Assembly (NCBI RefSeq): GCF_014647375.1
Contig: NZ_BMPB01000014.1
Span: 62,001-126,000, forward strand
Direction of reading: 5' to 3'
Length of the DNA: 64,000 bases
Source: Parabacteroides faecis
GTDB lineage: Bacteria; Bacteroidota; Bacteroidia; Bacteroidales; Tannerellaceae
Shown here: piece after piece, positions 4,079 to 37,486 of the stretch
Layout of the letters: each line of letters begins with the position of its first letter
How positions within the stretch are numbered: position 1 is the first letter of the stretch
Made by a program: the position numbers and the translations under genes
Notes under the pieces: generated by a model
Told to the model about the DNA's origin: nothing
The model's input: the letters and a program-made list of their open reading frames with translations, nothing else
Database searches by the model: none

Positions 4079-4083
4079 ATTAA

Positions 4084-4142: not shown

Positions 4143-4143
4143 A

Positions 4144-4190: not shown

Positions 4191-4194
4191 CACT

Positions 4195-7100
4195 TTATTT
4201 CTTCACAAATTTGAATGTCTTCCTGTTACCATTTGCACAGACTACCTGTGTAATATAGACACCCTTGCTTATTGAGCGAATATCAATGGTCACAATATTG
4301 GTCATCGGTGATTCTTTTCTAATAAAACGTCCCGAAACATCTAAGATATCTATATTACGAACAAGATCGGTTGCCTCAATGATCAGGTATCCGTTGGAAA
4401 TTTTATAACTGATAGCATCATCACTGATATTCTCATTTCCTGTCGGTTGATCTTTAGAGAAATAGAGATTATCCAGGTAGAAGGTTCCTTTTGCATCACT
4501 TTCAAACCGAATATATTTAACAATATTCAAATCAGGTAAGAAAAATTGGAAGATCTGCCATTTTTCTTTTGCAACCGGTAATGTGGCAAACTCTATTTCA
4601 TCTATTCCGTCCGACAGATAAATCTTCAAAGTTTCTTCATAAGGACTCCATACGTCCAGGTGTAGATATTCCATAGAAGAAACATCCAATAACCCTACGT
4701 TGACCGCCAACAGATTCGTGTTAGTCAGTTTCCATACGGGAACGCCTTTGATCGTAATAATTTCCACTTCCGTTTCTTGTCCATCCACCCTTTCAAAGAT
4801 AGAATTAATATTCTCATAAGGATTGCTATGTACAGAGACCACATTTTCCTGATGGAGAGTAGGTGCAGAAGCAGGCCAGACTGGTGCAGGTTCCTCTGGA
4901 TCGGGGTCAGGGTCGGGATCAGGATCAGGATCGGGGTCTGGATCAGGGTCTGGATCAGGTGTTACCGACTCTTGGTATAGGTAGACATGATCCATATATA
5001 TCCTGCGCTCTTCACCGGCCCCACCTGAAAAGTTGATACTTTTAAGTTTTCCTCCCGTCCGGGATAGAAAGTCGGCTAAGTCTATATCAATGCTATTCCA
5101 TGCATGTGGTTTCAATGTATAACTTTTTTTAGATGAAGTTATTCCATTTCCAGTAGCAGTAATAGTTATATCAAACCAGCTTCCCGGATATATTTCCAGA
5201 TGAAGTTTCGTTTTATTTTCCGGAAATATTTCATTGAAAGAAAGTGCTTCCGATGCAAAATTCGAGAATAAGATTATTTTTTGGTTCTTCGTATCCAATG
5301 CGGAATCATCATCCGGCAAATCATACAAATTCACTTTATATTGTGAGCTGAAAATACTTGACACATTTTCAACACTTTTGGATGGAACAGGAGCCTTGGG
5401 AATTATTTCAGAACCCTTTTTTATAGTTATATCTTTTAAAGTTACCTTCGCTTCCCCTCCATTACCCAACTCAAATGCTATACGAGCGGAATTATCCGTT
5501 TCGTGATGCATGGTAAAGGTATAGGAGAACGTTTGCTCATTCAATCTCGGGGTAAAATAAAAACTTCCATATTTAGTATAAGGCTCATCATTAAATCCGA
5601 TGTAACTCGAATAAATATCGCCGTTATTACTCGTTGTCTTAGCAATAAAGGAAATCTCATAAGTTGCATTTTTTTCTATGGTGAAGCCTGACAACAATGT
5701 CATAACCGAATAAGTTACATTGCCTCCATCGGTTATTTCTATTGTTAAAGATCCTTCGCCTTTATTCAATTTAGCATTTCCTCCCTGATTTTGAAGCAAT
5801 GCCCAGACTTTGCCTTTCGGATCATTGATATCATAAACAACTTCTTTAGAAAGGAACTGTATTTCTGCTGCTTTAGCTGGGATGCCATAAGTCAGCAATG
5901 CATCGGGTAAATAAGGATATTCCCCTACCGATTCGTTGTATATACTCGACGTCAGATGCCAGTAAGCAGAACTAAAGCCGTATTTCTCAATTGTCCGAGC
6001 TATATGATTTGTCCACAGGAGGCGTGAATCGATATCCGCTTTATAATGAACACCGAACTCTCCGATATGGATAGGAACATCGTTGCTGTCACTAAAAGCT
6101 TTTATCTTGTCAAAATCAGCGGTAACAGCATCTCGCTCGCTCTGAGTATCGCTCCACCTTAACCCGACGGGGTACATAGGATTTACCCATTCAGCTCCCT
6201 GATGGGTAAAAGGTAATGGATTGTAATAATGGATTGTTACGATCAGATGATCATCATTTTCCGGCAGTACTAAAGCATTCGCACCTTCCAGGCCATAAAT
6301 CGTACCCCAATTGGTCGTACCGACCATGATGGCGCGATTTTTATTATTATCGTTCCTGAAATCGTATGTTTGCCTTATCGTTTTGATAGCCTCCGGAAAA
6401 ACATGATTCCATTCACTATCCATCTTATCCCTGGGCTCATTCAATATTTCAAATACCAGTCTTTCATCATAGTTCTGAAAATAGTCAGCCAACTGCTCCC
6501 AAAGAGTCATGAAGCGCTTGATCTCACCAGTCTGGGCTTCACCCGACAAGTCCATCAACGGGTCATAATGGTGCATATTGAGAATAACTTTCAGATCGGC
6601 AGCCAAAAGTTTATCAACGACTTTCTGTATTTCAGTCAAGAATTCCGCTTTTATATTATAAGGAGCCTTATCCATACTCCTAGGATCTCCCTCCGGATAA
6701 TCATCCCAACGGACAGGGAGACGTACATGTTTAAAGCCTTTTTCTTTTATCTTTTCAATATATGTATCACTCCACGGATAGTCGGCCTGTTGTTCAAAAG
6801 TGGCACCGATGTTAACACCACGACCTAACTGATTGTTAAATACGGCAACAGGAGTTGGGGTAAAAGATGCTTGTTTGTTATAAAAATATATATTGTCGAT
6901 AAAGAAGGTTTTAGTGCCTTGATGACTATTAATTGACAGATATATGCCATACAAAGGACCTGATAATCCATTCGTTACATCTATCCGTGTCCATTCATTG
7001 GCAGTAAGTTTCTGAGCCGGAATTTCATAACTATCATCTCCTATCAAAGTAATAGTTAATTGTGTCTCTACCTCTGAATATACATCTATATGGAAAAATT

Positions 7101-8508
7101 CCATAGCACTAATGTCGGTTCCCGGAACATTTATTGGAATATGATTCATCTTGGCTAATGCCTTTACTTCACGATCTCCAATAGATGTAGGCAGTGGTAC
7201 TGTTGTCTGATGTTTATTATCTGTAACAAAAGTAAGCTCACCCTCAATTCTGGAATCAAGGTATGAATCACCAAATAAAGAAACCACATCTTCGGTATTA
7301 CGCACAGGAGGAAGATAAGCGGTGAAATCGGGCGTACCTTCAACAATTATTTGTTTGCTGTCATAAAAATAGATATGATCTAGGTATACAGTTGAACCTC
7401 CGGACGAAGGCTGAATAACACTTACATATTGATTATCCTCTGTTTCTACGTAATATTCAGAAAGATCTACCTCAATAGAATTCCATTTACCGCCAGTAAG
7501 ATTCTCAAATGTGAATTCCTTTGAAACCTCATCCGAAATACCCTCCACTCTGTCTTTATAAAGAATGAGCTTTACAGCAAATGAGATATTGGTTTCAGGA
7601 TATACTTCCAAATGCAATCTATCTTTTCCACTAATATTCAATCGATTATTATCCGGATTATATTGTATACCCATCCAACCCAAATTCGAGAATTTGAGAA
7701 TGTTTTTTTCATTTTCATCCTTTACTACGGATTTTACAGTCTGAGAACCCCATTGTTGATATTCCAAACTAATCCCTGTTCCATATTTTGTGCTGTAAAA
7801 GTTTTTGACATTAGAACTTTGACGTATTGGAACAGGTGCAGCTTTGATAGATGTCGGAGAAGGATTCTTTTCTTTATAGAAAAAAATATTATCTAAATAG
7901 ACTGTTACTTGCCCCTTAGCAGAACTATCCGACTTATCCACAACCGTTAATTCTATAGAATTTATTTGCTCCAATTGATTCGTACCTGTCACATATTCAA
8001 ATTCACTTAAAGGAATCCTCAGTGTATGCCAACTATCTGGAAGCAATTCACTGCCCACATTATCCATTGAAACAGTATATCCATAGACTGGTTTTGAACT
8101 GGGAGCATGCAATTTTATATTAAGCTCATCTATTTTCTCACTTAAATAAATATCGATATTGATACAGTTAATAGATGATGTTTCTATCTTAATATTAGGT
8201 CCACTCGTCTCCTCACTATAAAAGGCTATAAACTGGTTATCAAATGTAGAAAACTTAATTATATCTTGATCATTCCCGTTTTTCTCAATGGACTGTACTG
8301 TCGTATGATTTGGCTCCCAAGATACAAATTGTAAATCAGTACGCTTTCCATAGTAATTACTATAAATAAATTTTATACCATCATCTATTCTATCAAATCC
8401 GGGATCATTTGCAGCCGGAATAGTTTCCGCCCATACATTCTGTATCCCTGTAATCCCCGTTAATAAATACCAGATAATAAATAACTTTGAAAAAAAACTT
8501 GTTCTCAT
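4195..8508 (-). CDS. Large multimodular GH5-type endo-glycanase with repeated beta-sandwich modules and C-terminal sorting domain
   Basis: Secreted glycan-cleaving enzyme of unusual size (about 1,440 residues). Residue numbers count from ATG at 8532; ATG at 8508 gives the best signal peptide, ending at NVWA. The catalytic part (about 580-870) is a GH5 barrel: KHVRLPVRW, NMHHYDP, acid/base E699 in FEILNEPRD and nucleophile E825 in HIGEFGVHY. Five related modules of about 150 residues surround it; each begins with a V.S(L/I)FS..Y-like segment and ends with a (Y/F)(L/I)DN.YFY-like strand: three before the barrel, two after. A CBM4/9-like module lies around 885-1040. A DP-repeat linker of about 11 units joins the last two modules. 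The final 75 residues (ILDVSGRFIRK, GVYITQV, TFKFVKK) look like a type IX secretion C-terminal sorting domain, so surface export is inferred. No cognate susCD is on its strand, so its locus assignment is uncertain. Confidence 0.85.
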   Translation of the reverse strand: MRTSFFSKLFIIWYLLTGITGIQNVWAETIPAANDPGFDRIDDGIKFIYSNYYGKRTDLQFVSWEPNHTTVQSIEKNGNDQDIIKFSTFDNQFIAFYSEETSGPNIKIETSSINCINIDIYLSEKIDELNIKLHAPSSKPVYGYTVSMDNVGSELLPDSWHTLRIPLSEFEYVTGTNQLEQINSIELTVVDKSDSSAKGQVTVYLDNIFFYKEKNPSPTSIKAAPVPIRQSSNVKNFYSTKYGTGISLEYQQWGSQTVKSVVKDENEKNILKFSNLGWMGIQYNPDNNRLNISGKDRLHLEVYPETNISFAVKLILYKDRVEGISDEVSKEFTFENLTGGKWNSIEVDLSEYYVETEDNQYVSVIQPSSGGSTVYLDHIYFYDSKQIIVEGTPDFTAYLPPVRNTEDVVSLFGDSYLDSRIEGELTFVTDNKHQTTVPLPTSIGDREVKALAKMNHIPINVPGTDISAMEFFHIDVYSEVETQLTITLIGDDSYEIPAQKLTANEWTRIDVTNGLSGPLYGIYLSINSHQGTKTFFIDNIYFYNKQASFTPTPVAVFNNQLGRGVNIGATFEQQADYPWSDTYIEKIKEKGFKHVRLPVRWDDYPEGDPRSMDKAPYNIKAEFLTEIQKVVDKLLAADLKVILNMHHYDPLMDLSGEAQTGEIKRFMTLWEQLADYFQNYDERLVFEILNEPRDKMDSEWNHVFPEAIKTIRQTYDFRNDNNKNRAIMVGTTNWGTIYGLEGANALVLPENDDHLIVTIHYYNPLPFTHQGAEWVNPMYPVGLRWSDTQSERDAVTADFDKIKAFSDSNDVPIHIGEFGVHYKADIDSRLLWTNHIARTIEKYGFSSAYWHLTSSIYNESVGEYPYLPDALLTYGIPAKAAEIQFLSKEVVYDINDPKGKVWALLQNQGGNAKLNKGEGSLTIEITDGGNVTYSVMTLLSGFTIEKNATYEISFIAKTTSNNGDIYSSYIGFNDEPYTKYGSFYFTPRLNEQTFSYTFTMHHETDNSARIAFELGNGGEAKVTLKDITIKKGSEIIPKAPVPSKSVENVSSIFSSQYKVNLYDLPDDDSALDTKNQKIILFSNFASEALSFNEIFPENKTKLHLEIYPGSWFDITITATGNGITSSKKSYTLKPHAWNSIDIDLADFLSRTGGKLKSINFSGGAGEERRIYMDHVYLYQESVTPDPDPDPDPDPDPDPDPDPDPEEPAPVWPASAPTLHQENVVSVHSNPYENINSIFERVDGQETEVEIITIKGVPVWKLTNTNLLAVNVGLLDVSSMEYLHLDVWSPYEETLKIYLSDGIDEIEFATLPVAKEKWQIFQFFLPDLNIVKYIRFESDAKGTFYLDNLYFSKDQPTGNENISDDAISYKISNGYLIIEATDLVRNIDILDVSGRFIRKESPMTNIVTIDIRSISKGVYITQVVCANGNRKTFKFVKK
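4897..4968 (-). repeat. Hexanucleotide tandem repeat encoding a (Asp-Pro)n linker
   Basis: About twelve imperfect copies of GG(A/G)TC(A/G/T) on the plus strand encode alternating Asp-Pro in the GH5 protein. Each unit adds two residues and keeps the frame, so copy-number changes alter linker length without breaking the gene. Confidence 0.85.
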
Positions 8509-8727
8509 ACTTGTGCACATACGACTCCTCATACACTGAATATCTTCGCCTGTAGGAAAAGCGAAAGAAACCCAGTAAAAAATTGGTTTTTAACTCATTA
8601 TACTCAAATACAAATATCGCTATATTTATTAATATAACAGATATACATTAAGTTTATTTGTAATTTAATAAAGAATAGACTTCCTCATTTAGACAAAAGA
8701 GATTCCTGAAAAACCATTATCCATATT

Positions 8728-9795: not shown

Positions 9796-9895
9796 ATATC
9801 ACAAAAAGCATTACCTTTGCCAAGAGATATTGATTATGGGAAGAAATATTGTAATCTTCAATTTTTATATATCTTTACCCTATCAATCATTCGAT

Positions 9896-10456
9896 ATGGA
9901 GAACATTTCAGAGATAAAGGAATTTAACAAACTGTTTTCAAACTATCAGGGAATTTTCATCCGTTTTGCTAATACTTATATTCAGGATGAAGAAACTGCC
10001 GAAGATATAGTAGTCGACAGTCTGGTATATTATTGGGAAAATCGGCATTCTCTCACCTCCAATTCGAATATCCCGGCTTATGTCATGGAAGTCGTCAAAC
10101 ATAAAAGCCTTAACTACCTGCGTAATCAGCGAATCCGGGAAGACATCGAACAGAACCTCTGGGCCCACATGGACAGAGTCAGGAGACTAAAAATCACAAC
10201 ATTGGAAGCCTGCGATCCGGAAGAGTTGTTCAGTTCGGAAGCACAACGCCTGATAGACGAGACATTAGAAAGTCTACCCGAAAAGACACGTACCATCTTT
10301 ATTATGAGCCGGTACGAAAACAAAACCCACAAAGAGATTGCCGAGTACTTTGGCTTATCCACTAAAAGCATTGAATTTCACATCTCTAAAAGCCTAAGTT
10401 CATTAAGGGAAAGGCTGAAGGATTATCTCCCTTTATTTCTTATCTTCCTGAATTAA
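9896..10456 (+). CDS. ECF-type RNA polymerase sigma factor (SusCD locus regulator)
   Basis: Extracytoplasmic-function sigma factor of 186 residues. Region 2 is at about 8-75 (FIRFANTYIQDEETAEDIVVDSLVYYWENR) and region 4 at about 115-175 (LIDETLESLPEKTRTIFIMSRYENKTHKEIAEYFGLSTKSIEFHI). An upstream in-frame ATG exists at 9830. The start at 9896 is chosen because the truncated copy at 8760 and the second sigma at 39076 begin at the same MxxxSEI.EF position and because the upstream 22 codons match the leader of the duplicate. It heads a sigma-FecR-SusC-SusD block and should direct transcription of the susC operon when released by the FecR protein. Confidence 0.93.
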   Translation: MENISEIKEFNKLFSNYQGIFIRFANTYIQDEETAEDIVVDSLVYYWENRHSLTSNSNIPAYVMEVVKHKSLNYLRNQRIREDIEQNLWAHMDRVRRLKITTLEACDPEELFSSEAQRLIDETLESLPEKTRTIFIMSRYENKTHKEIAEYFGLSTKSIEFHISKSLSSLRERLKDYLPLFLIFLN

Positions 10457-10534
10457 TTTGCGGCTATCATATCTTTTTCCTAAAAAAGTAAATTTTTCCA
10501 TTAGGGATACATTTTACTTATGTGCTTATTATAT

Positions 10535-11473
10535 ATGGAAAGAAAAATACTATATCGTTTTTTCGAAGGAAAAGCTTCCTATGAAGAAGAGGAAGAGGTT
10601 TGCAATTGGGCTGAAGCTTCTGAAAAAAATATGCAGGAATATATAAAGGAACGCAAATATTTCGATCTTCTGCTTATTCAGAACAAGAAAAACAGCACAC
10701 CGTATTCTTCCTCGGGAAAAATGTTCCAACTGAACAATCTAATCAAATATGCAGCGGCTATCGCCCTGTTTGTCATGTGCGGCTTACAAGTCTACCGGAT
10801 AACAAAACCGGAAGCGGAGCAGGAAATAAACATGATCACAGTTCCGACGGGACAAAGAGTTAATCTTTTATTATCGGACGGGACAAGTGTATGGCTCAAT
10901 TCCGGTTCTAAAATGAAATATCCGGCCTCCTTTACAAAAGGGAAAAGCAAACGGAAAGTAACACTAGACGGAGAAGGTTATTTTGAAGTAGCCAAAGACA
11001 TAAAAAGACCATTCATTGTACAAACCGATAAATATGACATACAAGTTTTAGGCACAAAGTTTAATGTCGAAGCCTACAATGACACTCCGTCATTTTCTGC
11101 AGCATTAATGGAAGGTTCCATACAGATTTCGGATAAGAGCGAACCTTCTAATATAATCCTGTTACAGCCTCAACAAAAAGCAAATCGTATAAACGGACAA
11201 CTAGTTGTCGAAAAGATACAGAATTATGATATTTATCGCTGGAAGGATGGGTTACTCTGTTTTGAACACATCACGTTTAACAACCTGATGAAAGCATTCG
11301 AAAAGACATATGATATACAAATCATTAACAAAAACAAGAATCTGGACAACTATATTTGCAGTGGAAAATTCAGAATTTCAGATGGTATAGACTTTATATT
11401 ACAGGTCTTACAACGAGACGTTAAGTTCCGTTTCTACCGAAATGAAAATAATACGATTATCTATATAAATTAA
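10535..11473 (+). CDS. FecR-family anti-sigma factor
   Basis: Single-pass inner-membrane anti-sigma factor of 312 residues. The cytoplasmic N-terminus (MERKILYRFFEGKASYEEEE) binds the sigma factor. A membrane segment at about 70-90 (AAAIALFVMCGLQVY) is followed by the periplasmic FecR domain (TVPTGQRVNLLLSDGTSVWLNSGSKMKYP and GEGYFEVAKD..RPFIV). A C-terminal domain (about 230-312, ending FRFYRNENNTIIYIN) should contact the STN domain of the SusC protein. ATG 10535 is preferred over 10520 because the paralogue at 38443 starts MDKEILYKFF. It lies 78 bases after the sigma gene, and a 134-bp gap with a predicted antisense RNA follows before susC. Confidence 0.93.
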   Translation: MERKILYRFFEGKASYEEEEEVCNWAEASEKNMQEYIKERKYFDLLLIQNKKNSTPYSSSGKMFQLNNLIKYAAAIALFVMCGLQVYRITKPEAEQEINMITVPTGQRVNLLLSDGTSVWLNSGSKMKYPASFTKGKSKRKVTLDGEGYFEVAKDIKRPFIVQTDKYDIQVLGTKFNVEAYNDTPSFSAALMEGSIQISDKSEPSNIILLQPQQKANRINGQLVVEKIQNYDIYRWKDGLLCFEHITFNNLMKAFEKTYDIQIINKNKNLDNYICSGKFRISDGIDFILQVLQRDVKFRFYRNENNTIIYIN

Positions 11474-11517
11474 TATGTTAAACCTTTAAATCATATTGCC
11501 TATGAAATAGCTCATAA

Positions 11518-11595
11518 AGAAAAAAAGCGATAAATGCGGGAACATCTATCGCTTTATGACTAAAACAATTATCAACAACTGTATTAATCTTTAAT
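11518..11595 (-). ncRNA. Predicted cis-antisense small RNA in the fecR-susC gap
   Basis: On the minus strand, TAACTTTG (complement of 11601-11608) matches the Bacteroidetes TAnnTTTG -7 box and overlaps the susC start codon. A transcript starting near 11595 would run antisense to the susC leader. It would end at a hairpin with arms 11547-11555 and 11524-11532 (AAAGCGATA/TATCGCTTT), followed on that strand by seven T. Expected length is about 75 nt. B. fragilis DonS and related RNAs of about this kind occupy this position and repress their locus. The -33 element is not evident. The same arrangement occurs in the second ECF locus. Confidence 0.65.
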
Positions 11596-11607
11596 AATTA
11601 CAAAGTT

Positions 11608-14600
11608 ATGAATAAAGTATCTTTGTCGGGACCCTATTATCTAAAAAAATCACGACATAAACATTTTTTCAGAATCATGAGAATAACCTCATTCTTTGCA
11701 TTTGTATTGATCTTTTCATTACATGCTGTCAATTCAAACTCGCAAAATGCGCGAGTTACTGTCCAGGCCACCAATACTTCCCTAAAAGAAGTGCTGAATA
11801 CGATAGAAAAACAAACTGATTATTTATTTGTATATAATATAAATGTTAATACAAATCAAAACGTTGGACTCAATGCAGTAAACCTGCCGGTAAATCAGGT
11901 CTTAGATAATTTATTTAAAGGAATAGGATTGAGTTATGTAAAAGAGGGTTCTTATATTGTAGTCTCTACTGTTACCGAAAAAGCTTCTGTGAATCAACAA
12001 AAGAAACGGGTGGAAGGAACAGTAACAGATGCGAATGGCGAACCTATTATCGGAGCAAACGTAGTTGAAAAAGGAACAACAAACGGAACTATCACTGACC
12101 TGGATGGCAAATTCTCTTTGGAAATAACTCCCGGAGCCTTATTACAAGTATCTTATATCGGATATAATACCAAGGATATCACAGTTAACAGCAATCAGTC
12201 CATTCTGGCTATTAACTTATCAGAAGACACCCAGGCAATCGATGAAGTCATTGTCGTAGCTTTTGGTACACAGAAAAAATCCAACCTTACAGCAGCCGTA
12301 GCAACTGTCGATTCAAAAGCATTGGCAAACCGACCGGTAGCTAATGTCTCACAAGCATTACAAGGTATTTCTCCCGGGTTAAATATTATTGCTTCCGATA
12401 AAGGGGGAGCACTGAATGAAACTCCTTCTATCAATATCCGTGGAACCGGTAGTATCGGAGAAGGTTCCAAATCGTCTCCCCTTATATTGATCGATGGTAT
12501 TGAAGGTGATATGAATTTAATCAACACACAGGATATCGAAAGTATCTCCGTATTGAAAGATGCCGGTGCCTCAGCTATCTATGGTTCAAGAGCGGCATTC
12601 GGCGTTATCCTGATCACCACAAAGAAAGGGGAAGAAGGAAAGACTACAGTTAATTACAATAATAATCTGCGTTGGTCTACCCCTACCAAACTTCCCTCTT
12701 TCTTGAACGGTTATGAATTCAATACTTATTTCAACGAAGCGGCCGCCAACGCTGGCCTCGGAGCACAATACACTTCGGACGTGATGGAAAAAACAAGGCA
12801 ATTCATTTCCGGAGAAATTGATTATGCGACAGAGTACGACTCCAACGGCATCTGGAAAAAGAATCTGGACTCCTGGGGAAATACAGAATGGTTTGGAGTT
12901 TATTATAAAGATTGGAGTTTCTCCCAGGAACATAACATAAGTATCAGCGGGGGTGGTAATAAAGTGAACTATTATATTTCCGGTAATTTTCAGAATCTGG
13001 GCAGTGACCAGAATTATGGGAATGAAGACTATAAAAGATATGCATTCAATGCAAAGATAAATGCTAAACCTTTTGAGTGGTTGGATATCAATGCTAATGT
13101 TAAATTCTCGCGCAAAGATTATCAGGCTCCTTCTTACCAGATGAACCAGGTATATTATCACAGTATGCCACGGCGGCGCCCCTCCAATCCGGTATATACT
13201 CCAGATGGTATCTTCAATAAAGAATCGCAATTAAATGAGATAGATCACGGAGGTATGTATTTCGAAGATCTGGACGTGTTGTATCAACAGCTACAGTTAG
13301 TTGTCAAACCGTTAAAGGATTGGCAGATAATAGCAGAAGCCAATTATCGTATTGACAGAACGGAAAAGCATACAGATGTTCAACTCATCATGGAAAAGAA
13401 AGAGGACGGTTCCTATTTTGCTATGGCCCGCGACGACGGTTACGGAGGACGGTCTTTTGTGAAAGAAGAAGCATTACGGACAAACTATTTTAATCCGAAC
13501 ATATATACTCAATACAGTAAAGATCTGGAAAGCGGGCATTCTTTTACCGTGATGGCCGGATTCCAGGCAGAATTAAACCAGTACAAACGAATTTATGCCC
13601 AAAGAGACGGCATTATTTCTCCTGAAATTCCGTCATTAGGAAACACAACTTCCAGTACTGCATACGAAATGGGAAGCGACCTGAATGAATGGGCTACCGT
13701 AGGTTTCTTCGGACGTCTGAACTACAGTTACAAAGGCAGATATTTAGCAGAAGTCAATTACCGATATGATGGAAGTTCACGTTTCAACCGGGAACAACGC
13801 TGGAATAGCTTCCCTTCTGTTTCCGTTGCCTGGAATCTGGCACATGAATCATTTATGACAGAAAATCAGGATTGGGTCAATACACTTAAAATAAGAGGTT
13901 CGTACGGTAACCTGGGAAACCAAGCTACAGAAGAAATTTATCCATTCTATTCGTCAATGATACTGGGAATGGGAACTGGTGGCTGGTTATTGAATAATCA
14001 AAAACCCAATAAAGCAGAACCTGCCAAGCCCATATCACCGTTACTTACGTGGGAAACAGTTACATCTTATGACCTTGGTCTGGATTTAGGAATGCTCAAT
14101 AACCGATTGACCGGGACATTCGATTATTTCTGGCGAACAACCAATGATATGGTTGCCCCAGGTGAAGAGTTGCCAAACACTGCCGGAGTTACCCCGCCTT
14201 ATACTAATAATGCTAAAATGAGAACAACAGGTTGGGAACTCAGTTTAAATTGGCGGGATGTTTTGAATTCTGGTTTTAGTTATGGTGCCACATTGGTTCT
14301 GTCCGATAATCGCTCAAAGATTCTCAAATATCCCAATACGACTAAAACAATTTTTGACAGCGATAACAAAGTCCGTTACTATGAAGGAGCTATGCTCGGA
14401 GATATCTGGGGATACGAAACAATTGATCTGGCACGTACTGAGGAACAAATGAAAAACCATTTAGCCAGTCTACCTAACGGAGGGCAGGATGCACTCGGCT
14501 CTAACTGGGCAGCCGGTGATGTTATGTATACCGATCTCAATGGAGATGGAAAAATCGATGGAGGAAAAGGTATCGTAGGCGATTCCGGAGATAAAAAAAT

Positions 14601-15138
14601 TATCGGAAATACTACTCCACGCTACAATTTCGGTCTAACCTTGAATGCCGCCTATAAAGGATTTGACATAAGTTTGTTCTTTCAGGGAACGATGAAAAGA
14701 GATGTATGGTTGACCGGACTTTATTTTTGGGGAGCAGACAATGGGTACTGGCAATCAACAGCATTAAAAGAAACGCAAAATTATTTCCGTGCTGCAGATA
14801 CGGATAGCTATTTTGGTTCCAATGTCAACGGCTATCTTCCACGCCCACTTTTAAGCGGAGATAAAAAAAATAAAGAAATCAGCACCCAGTATTTACAAAA
14901 CGCAGCCTATATCCGTTTGAAAAATATGCAAATCGGATACACACTTCCACTTCAGGTTATTAATAAAATTAAAGTAAGTAATCTGAGAATTTTCCTATCC
15001 GCAGATAATATATTTACAATCAGCGGATTAAAAGCTGACGCCTACGATCCGGAAGTATTGGACGGATATGCTGCCGGTTCGGGAAAAGCATCCCCACTAA
15101 AAACTACGATCTCATGTGGATTAAGTGTTACACTATAA
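11608..15138 (+). CDS. SusC-like TonB-dependent transporter with STN signalling domain
   Basis: Outer-membrane glycan importer of 1,176 residues. Order: signal region (about 20-46), STN/secretin N-terminal domain (about 47-125: TVQATNTSLKEVLNTIEKQ, YIVVS), carboxypeptidase-regulatory-like domain (about 133-210: VEGTVTDANGEPIIGANV), plug (from about 215: VVAFGTQKKSNLTAAVATVD, LILIDGIEGDMNLINTQDIE, ISVLKDAGASAIYGSRAAFG) and the 22-strand barrel ending CGLSVTL. An STN domain marks a transporter that signals substrate binding to a FecR anti-sigma factor, and one is encoded immediately upstream. The long N-terminus before the signal (MNKVSLSGPYYLKKSRHKHF) is also seen in the SusC at 37346. Confidence 0.95.
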   Translation: MNKVSLSGPYYLKKSRHKHFFRIMRITSFFAFVLIFSLHAVNSNSQNARVTVQATNTSLKEVLNTIEKQTDYLFVYNINVNTNQNVGLNAVNLPVNQVLDNLFKGIGLSYVKEGSYIVVSTVTEKASVNQQKKRVEGTVTDANGEPIIGANVVEKGTTNGTITDLDGKFSLEITPGALLQVSYIGYNTKDITVNSNQSILAINLSEDTQAIDEVIVVAFGTQKKSNLTAAVATVDSKALANRPVANVSQALQGISPGLNIIASDKGGALNETPSINIRGTGSIGEGSKSSPLILIDGIEGDMNLINTQDIESISVLKDAGASAIYGSRAAFGVILITTKKGEEGKTTVNYNNNLRWSTPTKLPSFLNGYEFNTYFNEAAANAGLGAQYTSDVMEKTRQFISGEIDYATEYDSNGIWKKNLDSWGNTEWFGVYYKDWSFSQEHNISISGGGNKVNYYISGNFQNLGSDQNYGNEDYKRYAFNAKINAKPFEWLDINANVKFSRKDYQAPSYQMNQVYYHSMPRRRPSNPVYTPDGIFNKESQLNEIDHGGMYFEDLDVLYQQLQLVVKPLKDWQIIAEANYRIDRTEKHTDVQLIMEKKEDGSYFAMARDDGYGGRSFVKEEALRTNYFNPNIYTQYSKDLESGHSFTVMAGFQAELNQYKRIYAQRDGIISPEIPSLGNTTSSTAYEMGSDLNEWATVGFFGRLNYSYKGRYLAEVNYRYDGSSRFNREQRWNSFPSVSVAWNLAHESFMTENQDWVNTLKIRGSYGNLGNQATEEIYPFYSSMILGMGTGGWLLNNQKPNKAEPAKPISPLLTWETVTSYDLGLDLGMLNNRLTGTFDYFWRTTNDMVAPGEELPNTAGVTPPYTNNAKMRTTGWELSLNWRDVLNSGFSYGATLVLSDNRSKILKYPNTTKTIFDSDNKVRYYEGAMLGDIWGYETIDLARTEEQMKNHLASLPNGGQDALGSNWAAGDVMYTDLNGDGKIDGGKGIVGDSGDKKIIGNTTPRYNFGLTLNAAYKGFDISLFFQGTMKRDVWLTGLYFWGADNGYWQSTALKETQNYFRAADTDSYFGSNVNGYLPRPLLSGDKKNKEISTQYLQNAAYIRLKNMQIGYTLPLQVINKIKVSNLRIFLSADNIFTISGLKADAYDPEVLDGYAAGSGKASPLKTTISCGLSVTL

Positions 15139-15164
15139 TTACAGATATAAAAAATAGAATCAAT

Positions 15165-17186
15165 ATGAAAAAAGTCTATTATATATTAGCAACGGTTCTT
15201 TCTCTCATTTCCTGTAACGATTTTCTCGATCGTGAGCCTCTTGATAAGATCACCCCTGAAGTGTATTTCTCAACTTCAGAACAATTAGGGACTTATGCAA
15301 TTACCTGTTATGCTTATAAGTTAAATGACAACTATACTTTTAACTCAAATAATAAGGATGGTTATGGACTGGGGGTCTTCAAGTTAGATAACAATACCGA
15401 TGTGCAAGTTGCCACGGAAGGCGATCAGGATAGATGGGTTCCAGGCATTCTTAAAGTAAGCGATGGTGACGGCGAATGGGAATTCGCAGAAATATATAAC
15501 ATAAACTATTTCTTTGACCATGCAATGCCCAAATACCAGGCAGGTCAAATTTCCGGAAGCAGAACGGATATAGAGCACTATATCGGAGAAATGTATATGT
15601 TAAGGGCTAGGGCATATTTTGAAAAACTTAAAAAATTTGGCGATTTTCCTATCATTAAAACCAACATTAACATAGCAGACAAAGAAGCATTGGTGAAAGC
15701 TAACGAACGCCGTCCGATGAATGAGGTCGGACGCTTTATCCTGAATGATCTGGATTCCGCTATCATACTAATGTCATCTCCCGCTTCCGACGATATAAAA
15801 CGTAACCGATTGACCAAAGATGCAGCGTTACTCTTCAAATCGCGTACCGCTTTGTACATAGGGTCATGGCTGAAAAACTTCAAAGGGACAGCTTTTGTTC
15901 CAGGAGGAAACGGCTGGCCGGGAGTATCAAAAGACTATAATTCAAATTTTAGTATCGATATAGATAACGAAATTAATTTCTTCCTCACTGAATGTATGGA
16001 AGCATCCAAAGAGATAGCCGACCGTATTCCATTAACCGAAAATACACAAACAGATTATTCGTTTAGTAATAATCCATATGTACAGATGTACACAGATAAA
16101 GATCTATCTGTGTATCCGGAAGTTCTGTTTTGGAGTGAGACTAACTTAATCGGTGGAGGACTGGGATACGGATTCGCTCATAGCAAAGGCGGATCAGGAA
16201 GTGGATATACCAAAGGTTATATCAATAGCTTCCTGATGAAGGATGGAATGCCTGCCTATGCTTCTTCGTTATATGCCGGAGATGAAAATCTGAAGAATGT
16301 CAAACAAAATAGAGATAACCGGTTAGTTCAATTCCTTAAAATCAAGGATGAAGCACTTTCCATAAAATCAGATGGAAGCAAAGCTTTATTACCAGCTCCA
16401 ATGATCCTGACAACCGCAGAATATAAATCAGTAACAGGATATGACATAAAGAAAGGTCTGACAATGTCTGTCGATGATAAGACAGGCCCGGTACAGGAGT
16501 CTGGCGTTATTGAATACAGGGCGGCAGAAGCATATCTGAATTATATCGAGGCTTCTTACATAAAAAACGGTAACGTAGACGGAACAGCAGAAAAATACTG
16601 GAAAGCACTCCGGGAGCGTGCAGGCATTGATACTGACTTCCACAAAACAATTCAGGCAACAGATATGGGAAAAGAATCTCATCTGCTCTCTGCATATACA
16701 GCCGGTCAGCTAATAGATGCTACCATGTATAATATCCGCAGAGAAAGGGCATGTGAACTGATGTCAGAAGGTTTCAGATGGGATGATCTGAGAAGATGGA
16801 GGTCTATGGATCAGCTAATCAACCAGAAATATATTGTCGAAGGATTTAAATTATGGGGAGAAATGCAAAACTGGTATATGGACGAATCCGGACAGTCTCT
16901 ATTAAAATATACCGGCGGCGACGGTAGTTCAAAAGATGCCAATGTATCGAACCCGGCTAACAGTAATTATTTAAGACCCTATCAGATTGTAAAAGACAAT
17001 AACAATTTGTATAATGGTTACGGCTGGATGGCTGCCTATTATCTGTCTCCTATCGGAATGAGCCAGTTCAACATAACATCTTCGGGGAATAGTGGAAATA
17101 TAGATTATACCATCTCACCATTATACCAGAACCCCGGATGGCCAACAGAAGCCGGTGCATCTGCTGAAGTGGTAAATGGTTTCTAA
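15165..17186 (+). CDS. SusD/RagB-like outer-membrane lipoprotein
   Basis: Glycan-binding partner of the upstream SusC; 674 residues, longer than most SusD proteins (about 500-600). ATG 15165 is chosen because it gives the lipoprotein signal MKKVYYILATVLSLISC with Cys17 as lipidation site; an earlier in-frame ATG overlaps susC and adds no sensible sequence. Family signatures: LDREPLDKITPEVYF after the Cys, MLRARAYFEKLKKFGDFPII, YLNYIEASYI, and RRERACELMSEGFRWDDLRRWRSM near the C-terminus. It lies 26 bases after the SusC stop and is the last gene before a terminator and the integrative element. No catabolic enzyme follows, so the island may have cut the locus from its former downstream neighbours, or its enzyme is encoded elsewhere. 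Confidence 0.93.
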   Translation: MKKVYYILATVLSLISCNDFLDREPLDKITPEVYFSTSEQLGTYAITCYAYKLNDNYTFNSNNKDGYGLGVFKLDNNTDVQVATEGDQDRWVPGILKVSDGDGEWEFAEIYNINYFFDHAMPKYQAGQISGSRTDIEHYIGEMYMLRARAYFEKLKKFGDFPIIKTNINIADKEALVKANERRPMNEVGRFILNDLDSAIILMSSPASDDIKRNRLTKDAALLFKSRTALYIGSWLKNFKGTAFVPGGNGWPGVSKDYNSNFSIDIDNEINFFLTECMEASKEIADRIPLTENTQTDYSFSNNPYVQMYTDKDLSVYPEVLFWSETNLIGGGLGYGFAHSKGGSGSGYTKGYINSFLMKDGMPAYASSLYAGDENLKNVKQNRDNRLVQFLKIKDEALSIKSDGSKALLPAPMILTTAEYKSVTGYDIKKGLTMSVDDKTGPVQESGVIEYRAAEAYLNYIEASYIKNGNVDGTAEKYWKALRERAGIDTDFHKTIQATDMGKESHLLSAYTAGQLIDATMYNIRRERACELMSEGFRWDDLRRWRSMDQLINQKYIVEGFKLWGEMQNWYMDESGQSLLKYTGGDGSSKDANVSNPANSNYLRPYQIVKDNNNLYNGYGWMAAYYLSPIGMSQFNITSSGNSGNIDYTISPLYQNPGWPTEAGASAEVVNGF

Positions 17187-17625: not shown

Positions 17626-18936
17626 ATGCACATGAGTTCAATAATAGGAAAATACGTAAAAGAAGCATTATTCACCAAGCAAGTTGAAGGAGCAAAAATT
17701 GTACTCATACTTGATCCTAGAAGTACGCTTGAACAAACTCATGTTACAGTAAGAGTGACTTATAACAGAAAAAGCTTTTATTACCGTACAGGCTTACAAT
17801 GCGACCTGGAAATGTGGGATAAACTCCATGTAGCTAAAGGCACTAGCAAAGCCAATATAATCAGAAAAAGCCAAGAAGACATTTTTGATAAAGTAGTGAG
17901 CAAGGTCACCGAACTGTTTTCACTTGAACAATTCTCATTTGATCGACTCAAACAAGTGCTGAAAGAGCGTAATCAAGGAACGTTTTCTTCTCTTTGGGAG
18001 TCAATTATCGACTCTCTACGCAAGGAGGGAAGAGCTGGAACAGCAGACAGCTATCAGAATGCTTACAATAGTTTTTCTAAAAACATAGGTACCAATATTC
18101 CTTATACAAAAATAGGAGTTGAGACGATAGAAAAATGGACTGAAAGAATGATAGACGCTGGACGATCACAAACAACAATCGGAATATACCATCGCGGCAT
18201 AAGAGTTGCGATCAACAAAGCCATCGCGGAAGGCCACATAAAACCAAGCCAATATCCATTTGGTAAAGCAACGAATAAAATTTCTATTAGAAAAGGCAGA
18301 AGTAAAACAGAGGCCTATCTTCCCGTTTCAGATATCCTCAAATAAAAGGGTTACGACACGCCTGAAAAACGAGAGAAATATCAAACAAAATGGATTTGTG
18401 AGGCCGTAAACATGTTCCTCTTCTCATATTTAGCCAATGGTATGAATCTAATGGATATTTGTTTGCTCACATATAACGACCACTATTTTAACAGTGAGGG
18501 CAAAGAGTTGATGTTTGTTCGTAAAAAGACAGAAGCTACATCTGAATCAGAAATTCAGATTATCATACCTATTATCCCCGAACTGGAAGAAATACTCAAT
18601 CACTACGCCTCAGCTCCATCAAAAGACAGCTATGTTTTTCCGGATTTACTAAAAGGAGAAACTAATCCGACCAACATAAAAGCAATTGTAAAGGACTTAA
18701 ATGCGGATTTTGGCTTCCGTCTCAAAAAAGCAGCAAAAGAAGTAGGAATATCAAAACCCATTTCAATGACCTACGCTAGGCATAGCTTTGCCACCAATTT
18801 GACACATGCAGGCGTTTCAGAACGGTATATCTCCCAAGCAATGGGGCATAGTAACAAAAATGTAACAGGTGGCTATATAGCTCCTTTTTCGCCTCAAAAA
18901 AGAGTTTTGTTTAATTCAATGTTATTAACCGTATAA
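17626..18936 (+). pseudogene. Tyrosine-family site-specific integrase interrupted by an in-frame TAA
   Basis: Two frames, 17626-18345 and 18412-18936, are in the same phase and join across a single TAA at 18343-18345; the 22 codons between (KGYDTPEKREKYQTKW...) continue the protein. The N-terminal half holds the arm-binding (VTVRVTYNRKSFYYRTGLQC) and SAM-like core-binding domains (WESIIDSLRKEGRAGTADSYQNAYNSF). The C-terminal half is the catalytic domain: YARHSFATNL with the HxxR-type box, AMGHSNKNV and the likely nucleophile Tyr in TGGYIAPF. The usual first catalytic Arg position reads FSYLANGMNLMDI and may lack Arg, as in some Bacteroides integrases. Full length would be about 436 residues, normal for the family. 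Either the element is locked in place, the stop is read through, or the base is a sequencing error. Gene order places it next to the left att site, as expected. Confidence 0.9.
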
Positions 18937-18949
18937 TAAAAGATTATTA

Positions 18950-19936
18950 ATGAAAAGACGATTAAAAAAAAGAACAATCAAAAGGATAATAGACAAGAGG
19001 TTCATTACCCGAAAAATAACTCGTTTACTTAGATACGAAAAAACCATTCTATTTAAATATATTGATATTAAAGACACAGCTCTATATAACTCTTTTTGGA
19101 TAAGTGGATTTATAAGCAGAGAGAAACAACTTCTTTCTAAATTTAATCCTTATGTGTGGGGAGACGCTTACGAAGAAATTAACCGGTTCTATGACTTTTT
19201 AGAAAATGTAGGAAGCAGAAGAATTGAGAAATCAGATGATAATAAAGAAATTATAAAAATTAGATTTTATCTATATCTGCTATACGATTTGTACAAAGAT
19301 GAAGTTTATCTTTATAGATTAATACTAAAAGGAGATGCTAATCCCGGAAAGCTTCAAACTGAGCGAAAAGCGTGCCTTTCAGCAACCCCAAAAGCAGAGA
19401 AAATAAAAGTTACAATCCAAAGAGGAGCGATCCAAAAAGTTGAATCATATAAGTCTACTAAATATTTCCCTATGCCTCTAATTATCATGAAAAGAGCTTT
19501 CATCCCTGCAATTAAGAAAAGCCTAATTGCAAAAAGATTTGATACGATAGACAACGAAATGTCTGAGCTCATATTCTATAATGGAATAGTCTTCGAGACA
19601 CTAAAAGAGATTATAATCGAATCTCTTGATAAGTATACGAGATTTGCTGATAAGAAGCAAGGGGGAAGCGATAGAAGTAGTTTCATCAACGACATAATGA
19701 AAAGATTTACAGCTCTCCACTATTTTATAAAGGATTGTGATCTATATATCCAAGGAGAGAAATGTCCAACAACAGAAAGAGACTTTATCTGTAAGTTTCT
19801 GAACATAGATATCCCTGAAAGCAAATTTCAGAATTTTCGAGGCTGGAATAAAAATCATAAAACGGAATTTCCTAATCCAAAACTACCAAAAGATACAAAA
19901 TTAGACCCCATTTTTATTTATTATCCAGGTATGTAA
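18950..19936 (+). CDS. Unknown protein of the integrative element, 328 residues
   Basis: Not recognised. It is strongly basic at the N-terminus (MKRRLKKRTIKRIIDKRF), otherwise rich in Lys, Ile, Phe and Tyr, with no signal peptide or clear membrane segment. It starts 13 bases after the integrase stop, so it is probably cotranscribed with it. The C-terminal part (ERDFICKFLNIDIPESKFQNFRGW) looks like a compact helical domain. Basic character and position suggest nucleic-acid binding or a role in integration, but nothing in the sequence proves this. Confidence 0.7.
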   Translation: MKRRLKKRTIKRIIDKRFITRKITRLLRYEKTILFKYIDIKDTALYNSFWISGFISREKQLLSKFNPYVWGDAYEEINRFYDFLENVGSRRIEKSDDNKEIIKIRFYLYLLYDLYKDEVYLYRLILKGDANPGKLQTERKACLSATPKAEKIKVTIQRGAIQKVESYKSTKYFPMPLIIMKRAFIPAIKKSLIAKRFDTIDNEMSELIFYNGIVFETLKEIIIESLDKYTRFADKKQGGSDRSSFINDIMKRFTALHYFIKDCDLYIQGEKCPTTERDFICKFLNIDIPESKFQNFRGWNKNHKTEFPNPKLPKDTKLDPIFIYYPGM

Positions 19937-20080
19937 TTATGCTTACGTAAATCCGCAAGCATAACTACGTATTTTTCAGAAAATCAACACATTACATATC
20001 ATAACCAATTTATACCTTTGTACCAATCAAACCGATAGCTGATCAGTATCGGGGCGAATCATTTTTTTTAATAATAAGGT
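19937..20080 (+). promoter_or_regulatory. Promoter and inverted repeat upstream of the HTH-ATPase operon
   Basis: TACCTTTG at 20013-20020 fits the TAnnTTTG -7 box. Just downstream, 20032-20052 is an inverted repeat with CCGATA/TATCGG outer arms and the palindrome CTGATCAG in the centre. It lies between the promoter and the ATG at 20081, where a repressor site for the HTH protein would be expected. Confidence 0.55.
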
Positions 20081-20359
20081 ATGGATATGAAATTATATCT
20101 AGAACAACAGATTGAAAGTGCAGTAAAAAAGGCACTAGAATCGTCCCTAATTTCTCAACCAATTGTTGAGGAGACAAAGGGCAAAATTAAATTGTTTGGA
20201 ATCCGGAATGGTGCCGCTTATGTTGGATGCGCACCTTCCACTTTCCAAAAGTTAAAAAACTCAGGGAAAGTCCCATTCTATGAAGTAGGTAAACGAGTAT
20301 TTTTCTTTTCAGATGAAATAGATGAGGCTTTAAAGTGCAAGAAAGGAGGTAAATTATGA
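20081..20359 (+). CDS. Excisionase-like HTH (MerR/HTH_17 type) DNA-binding protein
   Basis: A 92-residue protein with an HTH_17/excisionase-type winged helix at about 40-90: KLFGIRNGAAYVGCAPSTFQKLKNSGKVPFYEVGKRVFF followed by DEIDEALK. The N-terminal 30 residues (LYLEQQIESAVKKALESSL) form a likely coiled coil for dimerisation, a layout common in Bacteroidetes mobile elements. It overlaps the ATPase gene by four bases (ATGA), so the two are translationally coupled. It could act as recombination directionality factor, as replication regulator, or both. Confidence 0.85.
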   Translation: MDMKLYLEQQIESAVKKALESSLISQPIVEETKGKIKLFGIRNGAAYVGCAPSTFQKLKNSGKVPFYEVGKRVFFFSDEIDEALKCKKGGKL

Positions 20360-21348
20360 TTAAGCAGGAATTTGGCGAAGCGTTCAAACAGCCAGTTGAG
20401 GCATTAGGCGATAATCTATTGATCAATTATGCAGATAGAATAGAAAATTCTGTTGCCCTACTAGCAGTAAAGGATATTCTTATAGCCTCTGTCGGAAACA
20501 TCTCTGTTATTGGAGGTAAGCAAAAAAGCCGAAAATCCTTTTTCACAAATATGCTTCTGACAGCATACTTAGAAGGAGAATATGGAGTAATAACGGGGAA
20601 TAGCAATGAGAAAAGACCCGCTTTACTGTTCGACACCGAGATGGGGAAAAATCATGTTCAAAAATCACTTCGACGCATCTGCCGAATGTGCGGTCTAAAT
20701 GAACAACATGATCGACTAAAAGTGTTTTTTCTACGTGAATGCAGCATTCAGGAGAGGATTGAAATAGTCAAGACCCAAGTAGAGAAGTATAAACCTGGAT
20801 TTGTTGTTATAGATGGCGCTGTCGATTTATGTGCCAATTTCAACGACATAGACGCTTCTACTAATGTTGTACAGTGCTTGATGGAATTAAGTAGCAAATA
20901 CAATTGTCATATCACCACTATCCTACATGAGAACAAAGGATTAGCTGACAGCAATTTAAGAGGTCATTTAGGAACAATATTATCTCAGAAATGTGAATCA
21001 GTTATCCAGCTTCAGAAAGACGGAGAGAACACCCGTGCATCGGCTGTTGCCACTCGTAACATACCCTTTGACGATTTCCTATTTAAGATCAACGATGAAG
21101 GTCTACCTACCATATTAGAATTGGTTAGCGTACCTCCAAAGCCCACTGCAGAGGATAAGATGATAAAGGTAATGCGCTTAGTATTGGACGAAAAAGCTCT
21201 TAATTACGGGATATTACAGAAAGAATATGAAGAAGCGGCAGGGGTGAAAGAAAGAACTGCTCAGAGCCACATCGCAAAATGTCTTCAATTAAAAATTATC
21301 TATAAGTCAGATACTGATGATAAGTACCGATGCACAAAATACCGTTAG
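20356..21348 (+). CDS. RepA/AAA_25-like RecA-fold ATPase, probable replication helicase or initiator
   Basis: A 330-residue RecA-fold ATPase. Walker A is an atypical GGKQKSRKSFF at about residue 55-65; Walker B is FVVIDGAVDL at about 155-165; TTILHENKG with the conserved His/Glu and LRGHLGTILSQKCESVIQL match the sensor region of RepA-like AAA_25 proteins. The C-terminal 70 residues (EEAAGVKERTAQSHIAKCLQLKII) contain a winged-helix segment. Such proteins replicate or mobilise plasmids, satellites and integrative elements in Bacteroidetes. Coupled to the HTH gene upstream; its end overlaps the next frame. Confidence 0.85.
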   Translation: MIKQEFGEAFKQPVEALGDNLLINYADRIENSVALLAVKDILIASVGNISVIGGKQKSRKSFFTNMLLTAYLEGEYGVITGNSNEKRPALLFDTEMGKNHVQKSLRRICRMCGLNEQHDRLKVFFLRECSIQERIEIVKTQVEKYKPGFVVIDGAVDLCANFNDIDASTNVVQCLMELSSKYNCHITTILHENKGLADSNLRGHLGTILSQKCESVIQLQKDGENTRASAVATRNIPFDDFLFKINDEGLPTILELVSVPPKPTAEDKMIKVMRLVLDEKALNYGILQKEYEEAAGVKERTAQSHIAKCLQLKIIYKSDTDDKYRCTKYR

Positions 21349-22601: not shown

Positions 22602-22607
22602 CACAAT

Positions 22608-24183: not shown

Positions 24184-24205
24184 ACAATAGCATAGTCTAA
24201 ATAGA

Positions 24206-36900: not shown

Positions 36901-37346
36901 TCTCCTCTGTTATCAACAACTTTACCCTTTATTATCTTTTCATTTTGCTCTACACCACTTGTATTCACCTGAGATGTTTTATTGGCAGATAAAACGATAT
37001 AGGAACCTTCCACTTCATATCTTAAGTCTGTCCCATCTAAAAGCTTATGTAAAGTCTCTGATATGGATTTTTCTTTCACATCAATTGAAACCTTTTTATT
37101 CACGTTGATATTCTTGTTGTAGACAAACAGAAAATCAGATTGTTTTTCTATTTCACTAAAGATCTGTTCCAACTGAACATTGTTCTTTTTAATTGTGAAG
37201 AGCACATTTTGAGAATGAATTTTTTCTGCAAACAGACAGAAAACGGGTACGAATAATAACAAAGTAGTAATTCGCATAATATTAAAAAAGTGTTTACTGC
37301 GTGGCCATTTTTGCAAATGAGCCTCCGACAAAGAATTTTTATTCAT
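33903..37346 (-). CDS. SusC-like TonB-dependent transporter with STN signalling domain
   Basis: Outer-membrane importer of 1,147 residues. ATG 37346 (MNKNSLSEAHLQKWPRSKHF) is chosen by comparison with the SusC at 11608; the longer frame to 37442 would run through the leader hairpin. Domains: signal (about 20-45), STN (about 46-122: FTIKKNNVQLEQIFSEIEKQ, YIVLS), carboxypeptidase-like domain (IKGKVVDNRGEPLLGVTIS), plug (VVVGYGTTKRTNLTGGVSTA, LMLIDGAEGDLDLINPADIE, SVSVLKDGTAAIYGARAADG) and barrel ending NLSFGINVIF. STN plus upstream FecR and sigma genes give the regulatory chain from substrate binding to transcription. Confidence 0.95.
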   Translation of the reverse strand: MNKNSLSEAHLQKWPRSKHFFNIMRITTLLLFVPVFCLFAEKIHSQNVLFTIKKNNVQLEQIFSEIEKQSDFLFVYNKNINVNKKVSIDVKEKSISETLHKLLDGTDLRYEVEGSYIVLSANKTSQVNTSGVEQNEKIIKGKVVDNRGEPLLGVTISVKGTKQGSVTDLDGNYSLSVPDNKAILQFAFLGFVPQEINVGNKSTINVTLQEDMLQLNEVVVVGYGTTKRTNLTGGVSTADATTFQSRPVQNATTALQGQVPGLTITRSSGAPGSTAKIRIRDISSLNDGKPLMLIDGAEGDLDLINPADIESVSVLKDGTAAIYGARAADGVILITTKSGKKNQPLKVTLDAFYSVKTPALMKKTVNLYQYASMGLEITDGSWTPEYSAEDLPLIAAASDQVVLNGIWGAYPKWYKSQNWRDLTVGNGHLQNYNLNLTGGGDKYSYMISLAYQNEQGLPKFGVDKEDRYFIRAKSNIQIVKGLDYELNLSYGASDRLVSSGINQGTDNLWELMYKARCWQPMYNPAGGYYTFQGYTNPAQAAEEHGNTTKTTGNFTFNNSLKWEVIDGLNLIGRAIVSKNDGDENEENKIVYVRDWDNEIMRGTYFPNWNQRRYQKTLYKNFTLYAEYKKRFRELHDIGIMVGAANESTDFDKFSAQRINYTQQEIMSLPLGSTENQQALSEGYAWTINSVFSRLSYTFADKYIIDGVLRADASSRFAKGYRWGYFPGVSAAWRLSEEKFIKEANIFDDLKLRASYGEMGNQSGIGYYDYIQLVKIEGAKNYPFGDGTKGQLAKPGNMVSTTRTWETIVSTDIGMDFGILQNRLYGSFDYFWKTNKNMLIPITYPTVLGTDAPATNNGRLEIKGWEVVLGWRDKIGEFDYSIRASLSDARNKIVEKGGKDNPALGLNYKDNGYLNGYPLDSYLGYMFDGIIQNEAQLAEYKARFSKGGIPGNIQVGDAMYKDLDGDGILSISGDGTPGSGDAVYLGDRNPRYSFGFNFNASYKGFDLGFFLQGVAKRTTFLEGSARLPFQEWFWDPLEYWYGKTWTPERTDARYPAITLQDKRYYNYQYSSNTKHNAAYMRLKNLQVGYTIPGKITEKIKIEKVRFYFSGEDLFEIHNVPGGWDPESDGGANSYPFTRNLSFGINVIF

Positions 37347-37359
37347 ATCTTTGTAATTC

Positions 37360-37434
37360 TTGAGATTAATACAGTTAATAATAATTGTGTTAGTCGATGC
37401 CGATAAGTGTTGGCCCACTTGTCGGCATTTTCTT
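37360..37434 (+). ncRNA. Predicted cis-antisense small RNA in the second fecR-susC gap
   Basis: TATCTTTG at 37346-37353 on the plus strand is a -7 box that overlaps the susC start codon (susC is on the minus strand). A transcript starting near 37360 would run antisense to the susC leader and end at the hairpin 37397-37409/37416-37428 (13 bp with one G-U), followed by TTTTC. Expected length about 75 nt. Geometry is the same as at 11518-11595. No good -33 element is seen. Confidence 0.6.
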
Positions 37435-37486
37435 AAGGTCAATAAAGCAGTTCTTATATCATAGGCATCTTGTTTTTAAGTTTCTA

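Follow-up and report, generated by a model that had tools for sequence, protein, structure and literature searches.

The locus analysed here raises two questions: (i) whether the short gap in front of a susC gene, behind the genes for an ECF sigma factor and its anti-sigma factor, encodes an antisense RNA as a unit of its own, complete with promoter and terminator; and (ii) what such an RNA would do to the transporter gene that it faces. The window, by which we mean the whole stretch of DNA analysed, is 64,000 nt of Parabacteroides faecis (GCF_014647375.1, NZ_BMPB01000014.1, positions 62,001-126,000 of the forward strand), and the genome searched consists of 6.66 Mb in 33 contigs. The gap, from the stop of the anti-sigma gene (11473) to the start of susC (11608), measures 134 bp. 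The features of the locus, and a second copy of the antisense region elsewhere in the window, are as follows.

9830..10456, plus strand: ECF sigma factor (domains Sigma70_r2 and Sigma70_r4_2); an internal Met is probably the true start
10520..11473, plus strand: anti-sigma factor (domain matches to FecR and FecR_C)
11478..11490, plus strand: conserved element TTAAACCTTTAAA, which precedes the tiny ORF; translation leader, -35 of an ECF promoter, or both
11502..11510, plus strand: putative tiny leader ORF, ATG AAA TAG (Met-Lys-stop), in GCCTATG (11498-11504); from the count of motif loci
11516..11595, minus strand: predicted antisense RNA to the susC leader, about 80 nt (fold and covariance-model match); the 5′ end, 11595, is placed from the position of the box
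11516..11523, minus strand: T tract of the intrinsic terminator (sequence)
11524..11555, minus strand: terminator hairpin, 14 pairs, loop of 4 (fold; helix 2 of the covariation test)
11558..11589, minus strand: 5′ stem-loop of the antisense RNA (fold; helix 1 of the covariation test)
11601..11608, minus strand: -7 box TAACTTTG of sigma-ABfr type; it overlaps the susC start codon at the A (sequence)
11608..15138, plus strand: SusC-type TonB-dependent transporter with STN signalling domain (domain matches); presumed target
15114..17186, plus strand: SusD partner (domain match)
37344..37436, plus strand: second copy of the antisense RNA region, locus L003 (85.9 bits with the family model, as a training sequence; box at -7, hairpin by scan)

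The copy at 37344..37436 is closely similar and spans the start of the second ECF-controlled susC gene of the window, which lies on the minus strand and probably begins with the ATG at 37346, not with the TTG given by the ORF tool.

An earlier note on this DNA had placed a minus-strand promoter box over the susC start codon, and the box is there: minus-strand TAACTTTG (11608-11601) has its first base across from the A of the susC start codon (11608), and the TA of the box faces that of the susC TATG. The note had further described a 9-bp hairpin with a run of seven T, and had predicted a discrete RNA of about 75 nt. The hairpin exists at that place but is larger, with 14 pairs, two of which are G.U (counted by eye), and a 4-nt loop (11555-11524); the T7 run was confirmed, its first three T sitting in the stem; and a discrete RNA is indeed predicted, with a length closer to 80 nt (11595 to 11516). 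That the RNA would have its own promoter and terminator also holds up, in that the -7 box and the terminator are both present in the sequence, the promoter being predicted from it. A -33 TTTG element is absent at the window locus and is not enriched in the antisense family. For the predicted 80-nt RNA the computed fold has two stem-loops, the 5′ one and the terminator, at -25.9 kcal/mol (z -7.3 from 200 shuffles averaging -8.7 kcal/mol), whereas the fold of the plus-strand leader, 11478-11640, is unremarkable (z -1.6). The terminator-like site scores -16.1 kcal/mol, and the gap matches the covariance model of the family described below over 11516-11610 with 90.5 bits, as one of its 22 training sequences. 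The sequence itself is thus enough to establish a predicted two-stem RNA that ends in an intrinsic terminator. When the whole window was compared with Rfam, the tRNA was alone among RNA families in reaching its gathering score; five sub-threshold matches in 11400-11750 look like chance.

The same arrangement recurs across the genome. There are 83 FecR matches, 82 of them with a readable downstream ORF (L096 has none and was left out), and 77 of the 82 gaps measure 60-260 bp and were used for the counts at the stricter cut. At a loose cut of -6 kcal/mol, a terminator-like hairpin with a T tract is found on the minus strand in 63/82 gaps and on the plus strand in 2/82. Signals of this kind could be chance motifs in AT-rich DNA, or the RNA the product of spurious antisense transcription: many antisense starts in B. 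thetaiotaomicron are described as giving short, weak transcripts, some perhaps noise (PMC7366714), and 12.5% of shuffled gaps also score a minus-strand site at -6 kcal/mol. At -12 kcal/mol, however, minus-strand terminators are found in 60/77 gaps as compared with 0.3% of 1540 dinucleotide shuffles, and among 47 control gaps between co-directional genes a strong hairpin with T tract occurs in 7 when the minus strand is read and in 14 when the plus strand is read. The genome-wide controls, together with the recurrence and the covariation described below, leave chance or noise scarcely credible as an explanation. A search for the SusC family listed 56 genes (56 of 207 candidates were scored), 19 of which are not downstream of an anti-sigma gene (by eye against the FecR list); among these 19, neither a minus-strand terminator (0/19) nor the -7 box (0/19) was found.

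The box recurs in a fixed register. In 55/82 ECF susC genes, one of the first 20 codons is an in-frame ATG on whose A the sequence CAAAnnTA ends; counted at the first ATG only, the same register is found in 49/82, and CAAAnnTATG at the start codon is found in 0/257 control genes. To judge from its sequence, then, the minus-strand -7 box is a predicted housekeeping (sigma-ABfr-like) promoter element held in fixed register with the start codon of susC. On inspection by eye, an extra stretch of some 20-25 residues precedes an internal Met and a signal-peptide core in many SusC proteins of the ECF type; in their genes it is the outer start codon that the antisense promoter overlaps. The exact box at -7 is missing from 27/82 ECF loci, which counts against reading the unit as a brake on susC, and 17/77 gaps lack a strong minus-strand terminator; the antisense unit is therefore not obligatory. 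As a predicted element it is nevertheless established at the majority of ECF/anti-sigma/susC loci in this genome, and relatives carry it at many loci. Across the 51 loci with box and terminator the predicted RNAs are 72-128 nt long, with a median of 88, both ends being predictions.

The conserved structure could instead belong to the mRNA, as a plus-strand leader hairpin, with the minus-strand box a by-product of the sequence at the translation start. A weaker hairpin does form on the plus strand (mean -12.3 as compared with -17.1 kcal/mol on the minus strand; hairpins weaker than -12 kcal/mol were left out of this comparison, of the upstream-motif analysis and of the 51-locus structure analysis). 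But in a strand-neutral inverted-repeat test of 65 loci, pairs that are G.T on the minus strand number 96 and A.C pairs (G.T on the plus strand) 8, and by locus the wobble leans to the minus strand in 53, to the plus strand in 2 and to neither in 10. The 63:2 strand bias of the hairpins with T tract, and the lack of CAAAnnTATG at any control start codon, also speak against a plus-strand hairpin, and we regard it as very improbable. The same lean is seen in the part of the RNA that precedes the terminator, for which the mean z on the minus strand is -2.57, with 36/51 loci below -1.5, as against -0.62 and 9/51 on the plus strand.

Both stems appear to be maintained by paired changes. Among 14 aligned sequences, 93.5% of stem cells pair as compared with 82.7% in shuffles, and two-sided changes occupy 37 cells as compared with 12.2 in shuffles and 2-9 when the partner strand is slid. 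The number of pairs with two-sided changes (9 vs 6.4; 27/500 shuffles as high) and the number of further pair types (26 vs 23.0; 14/500 as high) lie weakly above shuffles. The 5′ stem, helix 1, is paired in 92.9% of cells with two-sided changes in 2/12 pairs; the terminator, helix 2, in 94.2% of cells with two-sided changes in 7/11 pairs. A 22-sequence alignment has a two-sided change in 17/20 pairs. The window row lacks the box region in alignment A1 and includes it in alignment A2. Because the aligned sequences are related, the shuffles alone give no probability. Taken together, the recurrence, the absence at the 19 other susC genes, the minus-specific G.U pairs and the covariation point to a real, selected RNA, and they support the earlier note's proposal of a discrete antisense RNA like DonS.

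A covariance model (R1) of this fold was built from 22 sequences, 14 of them from the window's own genome, and its E-values are rough. Over that genome it gives 36 matches at E up to 1, of which 35 are antisense just downstream of FecR. Since the window is itself a training sequence, the independent support comes from the matches outside the training set: 21/22 are at anti-sigma loci, although such zones make up 0.7% of the genome. Among relatives, matches at E up to 0.01 were obtained in 28/60 genomes, namely the window's own, 22/35 others of the same genus and 5/24 of the same order; a sample of the phylum gave matches in 3/80 genomes, one of which is the window's own. One match outside the order (G121:C2:87272-87380, E 0.005) follows a FecR gene at a distance of 444 bp, on the opposite strand and thus in the arrangement typical of the family; another (G171:C1:1538040-1538126, E 4.8e-4) is in a genome without a FecR match. 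The combination of box and terminator, counted at one locus per genome, has a similar distribution: 14/23 in the genus, 5/29 in the order and 0/29 at phylum level, with L036, L058, L165 and L175 (no downstream ORF) as well as L059 and L060 left out; swapping the group labels of L047 and L057 leaves these tallies unchanged. Two of the misses within the genus, L046 and L048, have a model match just downstream of the anti-sigma gene, which indicates that the script mis-called the susC start there. The closest loci, L032, L033, L034 and L035, all keep box and hairpin, with paired stem changes in the latter three; two named-relative matches at 30% identity were left out.

What the RNA would do is suggested by its position and by known systems. 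The DonS family is described as cis-antisense RNAs of 78-128 nt, divergent to susC, that lower expression of polysaccharide utilization loci (PULs) (PMC7366714), and the DonS of B. fragilis represses its PUL (PMC7366714, PMC11697453). The RNA considered here resembles this type in being antisense to the susC leader, in facing the 5′ end of a susC homologue from the opposite strand and in divergent orientation, in a predicted length of about 80 nt that falls within the 78-128 nt range (its ends are predicted), and in having a promoter of its own. It differs in its start-codon-locked promoter and in belonging to a defined two-stem covariance family; the likeness is one of position, length and promoter type. 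The present RNA also differs from the DonS type in the 60/77 ECF-susC gaps with a strong terminator and in its GH5 and GH31 neighbours. These neighbours, a GH31 enzyme and a 1445-aa GH5/CBM4_9 protein, lie beside the ECF locus at 1709-8532 of the window, and they hint that the substrate may be a plant rather than a host glycan; the DonS family has been described for mucosa-derived glycans (PMC7366714). In B. thetaiotaomicron 10, and later 32, PUL-associated antisense RNAs have been reported (PMC7366714, PMC10994844), and the expression of some antisense RNAs there is anti-correlated with that of their PULs while that of others is positively correlated (PMC10994844). By analogy with DonS, the antisense RNA probably keeps the susC importer off until its sugar appears; because of the mixed correlations in B. 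thetaiotaomicron, we rate repression of susC at the window locus as likely and no higher.

The explanation that we consider probable is therefore that the gap contains a gene for a DonS-type antisense RNA acting in cis, and that this RNA blocks the susC leader until transcription by the ECF sigma factor overwhelms it. The mechanism of DonS has been called unknown (PMC11697453); the following scheme is our proposal for the RNA described here. While the PUL is idle, the housekeeping polymerase would make the RNA from a start near 11595. Its pairing with the untranslated leader of susC would extend between a point some 12-13 nt ahead of the AUG and one just beyond the tiny ORF, and the duplex would cover the weakly structured region where ribosomes land, blocking their loading, and would be open to cleavage, which is likely. 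With the landing region covered and the duplex cleavable, stray or low-level susC mRNA would remain untranslated. A transported sugar would trigger the route from SusC through the anti-sigma factor to release of the ECF sigma factor. Sense transcription would then cross the antisense promoter, a part of the presumed sense unit, so that the sense mRNA would not only outnumber the antisense RNA but its production would also shut down synthesis of the latter. The outcome would be a threshold switch, that is, one without leak.

The convergent geometry, with the antisense promoter inside the sense unit, would equally suit a mechanism of transcriptional interference, in which converging polymerases collide and the RNA is a by-product. 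Against this, the fold of the RNA is under selection in both stems, and antisense transcription would end before it reaches the conserved upstream element. A terminator short of that element and a conserved fold together favour the RNA itself, rather than occlusion of a sense promoter there, as the likely repressor, and interference seems to us an unlikely alternative.

Less easily separated from an antisense brake is the region upstream of the hairpin. On the sense strand there is a motif around TTAACCTTTAAA, followed by GCCTATG, whose ATG opens a short reading frame. Where GCCTATG is found (at most one mismatch allowed, ATG kept), an in-frame stop follows within 7 codons in 57/62 loci (37/39 in the window's own genome and 20/23 in others), as compared with 22.6 +- 3.8 of 62, and a maximum of 36, in 500 shuffles. 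When loci with a stop at codon 2 or 3 are excluded, 19/21 still close by codon 7 vs 5.8 +- 2.0, a figure reached in 0/2000 shuffles. Independently of the motif, a complete ORF of at most 7 codons precedes the hairpin in 52/58 gaps, against 27.3 +- 3.3. The exceptions among the 62 motif loci are L063, L091, L042, L045 and L053; L198, the single motif locus at phylum level, is doubtful. Homologous loci keep the short ORF while its peptide changes, from MK in the window to MIEC, ME, ME and ME in L032 to L035. GGAGG precedes the ATG in L029, L075 and L105. L093 and, by eye, L028 and L079 have Pro-Pro-stop, a context known for stalling, at the end of the ORF.

These features raise the possibility that control is coupled to the leader ORF: translation of the ORF of 1-7 codons, and not only direct loading of ribosomes at the AUG, would decide whether susC is translated, and the antisense RNA and the leader ORF would compete over the same hairpin region. 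There is precedent for such an organization in CopA/CopT-tap-repA of plasmid R1 and in sok/mok/hok, in which a structured antisense RNA lies over a leader with a short ORF before the regulated gene. The present locus has the same elements, the short ORF upstream of susC being present as sequence, but here the antisense RNA spans the stretch between the short ORF and the gene, the ORF is in most cases 1-7 codons long, and the regulated gene encodes a nutrient transporter. Several observations weigh on the other side. Two of the three loci with GGAGG have longer ORFs, of 19 and 23 codons. The distance from the stop of the ORF to the hairpin is not fixed (4-39 nt), and the length of the ORF does not track it. 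Finally, the motif may be read as a promoter. Among 37 of the 39 loci of this genome aligned on the ATG (L063 and L091 were left out), AAC[CT] is commonest 17 nt before GCC (8/37), with most others within 3 nt, and a run of A is fixed at -14 to -12 in 30-33/37. AACC and GCCTATG look like the -35 and -10 of an ECF promoter, and on that reading the ECF-driven mRNA would lack part of the ORF; no promoter consensus for this ECF sigma group was found in the portions of the literature available to us. The in-frame stops at varying codon positions indicate that GCCTATG is more than a -10 element and argue for translation. We regard the mini-ORF as a likely leader ORF, still unproven because related loci share ancestry, and coupling of susC translation to it as a tentative proposal. 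Small ORFs in long 5′ UTRs are mentioned in general terms in PMC7366714; no description of a susC leader ORF was found in the literature, as judged mainly by titles and the openings of abstracts.

A broader and equally tentative suggestion is that the ECF-susC genes of Bacteroidales share one cassette, consisting of a start-stop ORF of 1-7 codons at the head of the mRNA, a leader that a two-stem antisense RNA mirrors and an antisense promoter fused in a fixed register to the susC start codon, in which translation of the ORF and the antisense RNA jointly set a threshold for synthesis of the transporter. If true, dozens of loci in one genome would each carry a chromosomal analogue of the circuits that control plasmid copy number, and the conserved mini-ORF, if translated, would form a second layer of control. 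Antisense RNAs of PULs are already known; what is added here is the predicted start-codon-locked promoter, the two-stem family fold and the conserved mini-ORF. The covariance model, the fixed anatomy and the count over ECF loci turn scattered PUL antisense RNAs into a definable family, and they point to a built-in RNA brake on most of the glycan importers that are under anti-sigma control in such a genome. Cao et al. 2016, reportedly the founding paper on the DonS of B. fragilis, lay outside our comparison; in the literature compared, as far as its text was available, no report was found of a start-codon-locked antisense promoter or of a two-stem family fold.

A second class of small RNAs, the FopS RNAs, represses susC translation in trans through a single-stranded 5′ seed (PMC11697453). 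Like FopS, the RNA of the window is small, has a terminator hairpin and is predicted to act at the susC translation start region; unlike trans-acting FopS, it is a perfect complement in cis with a structured 5′ end. The FopS family is said to have been deposited in Rfam (PMC11697453); its name is absent among the five weak Rfam matches in 11400-11750, an absence that carries weight only if the Rfam copy used includes FopS. Trans cross-talk between the antisense RNAs of similar loci is possible, in that 62/2550 non-cognate pairs share at least 12 complementary bases as compared with 4-14 in five shuffles. The computed pairing of the window RNA with its own leader reaches -124.3 kcal/mol, and the next best partner, L003, -57.8 kcal/mol.

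Finally, beyond susD the window carries two adjacent ORFs (17626-18345 and 18412-18936) that match a tyrosine integrase in its SAM-like and its catalytic part, an AAA_25 protein (20356-21348) and a tRNA (24500-24573). From this gene content, the stretch 17626-24573 looks like an integrated element, with an integrase that is possibly split.
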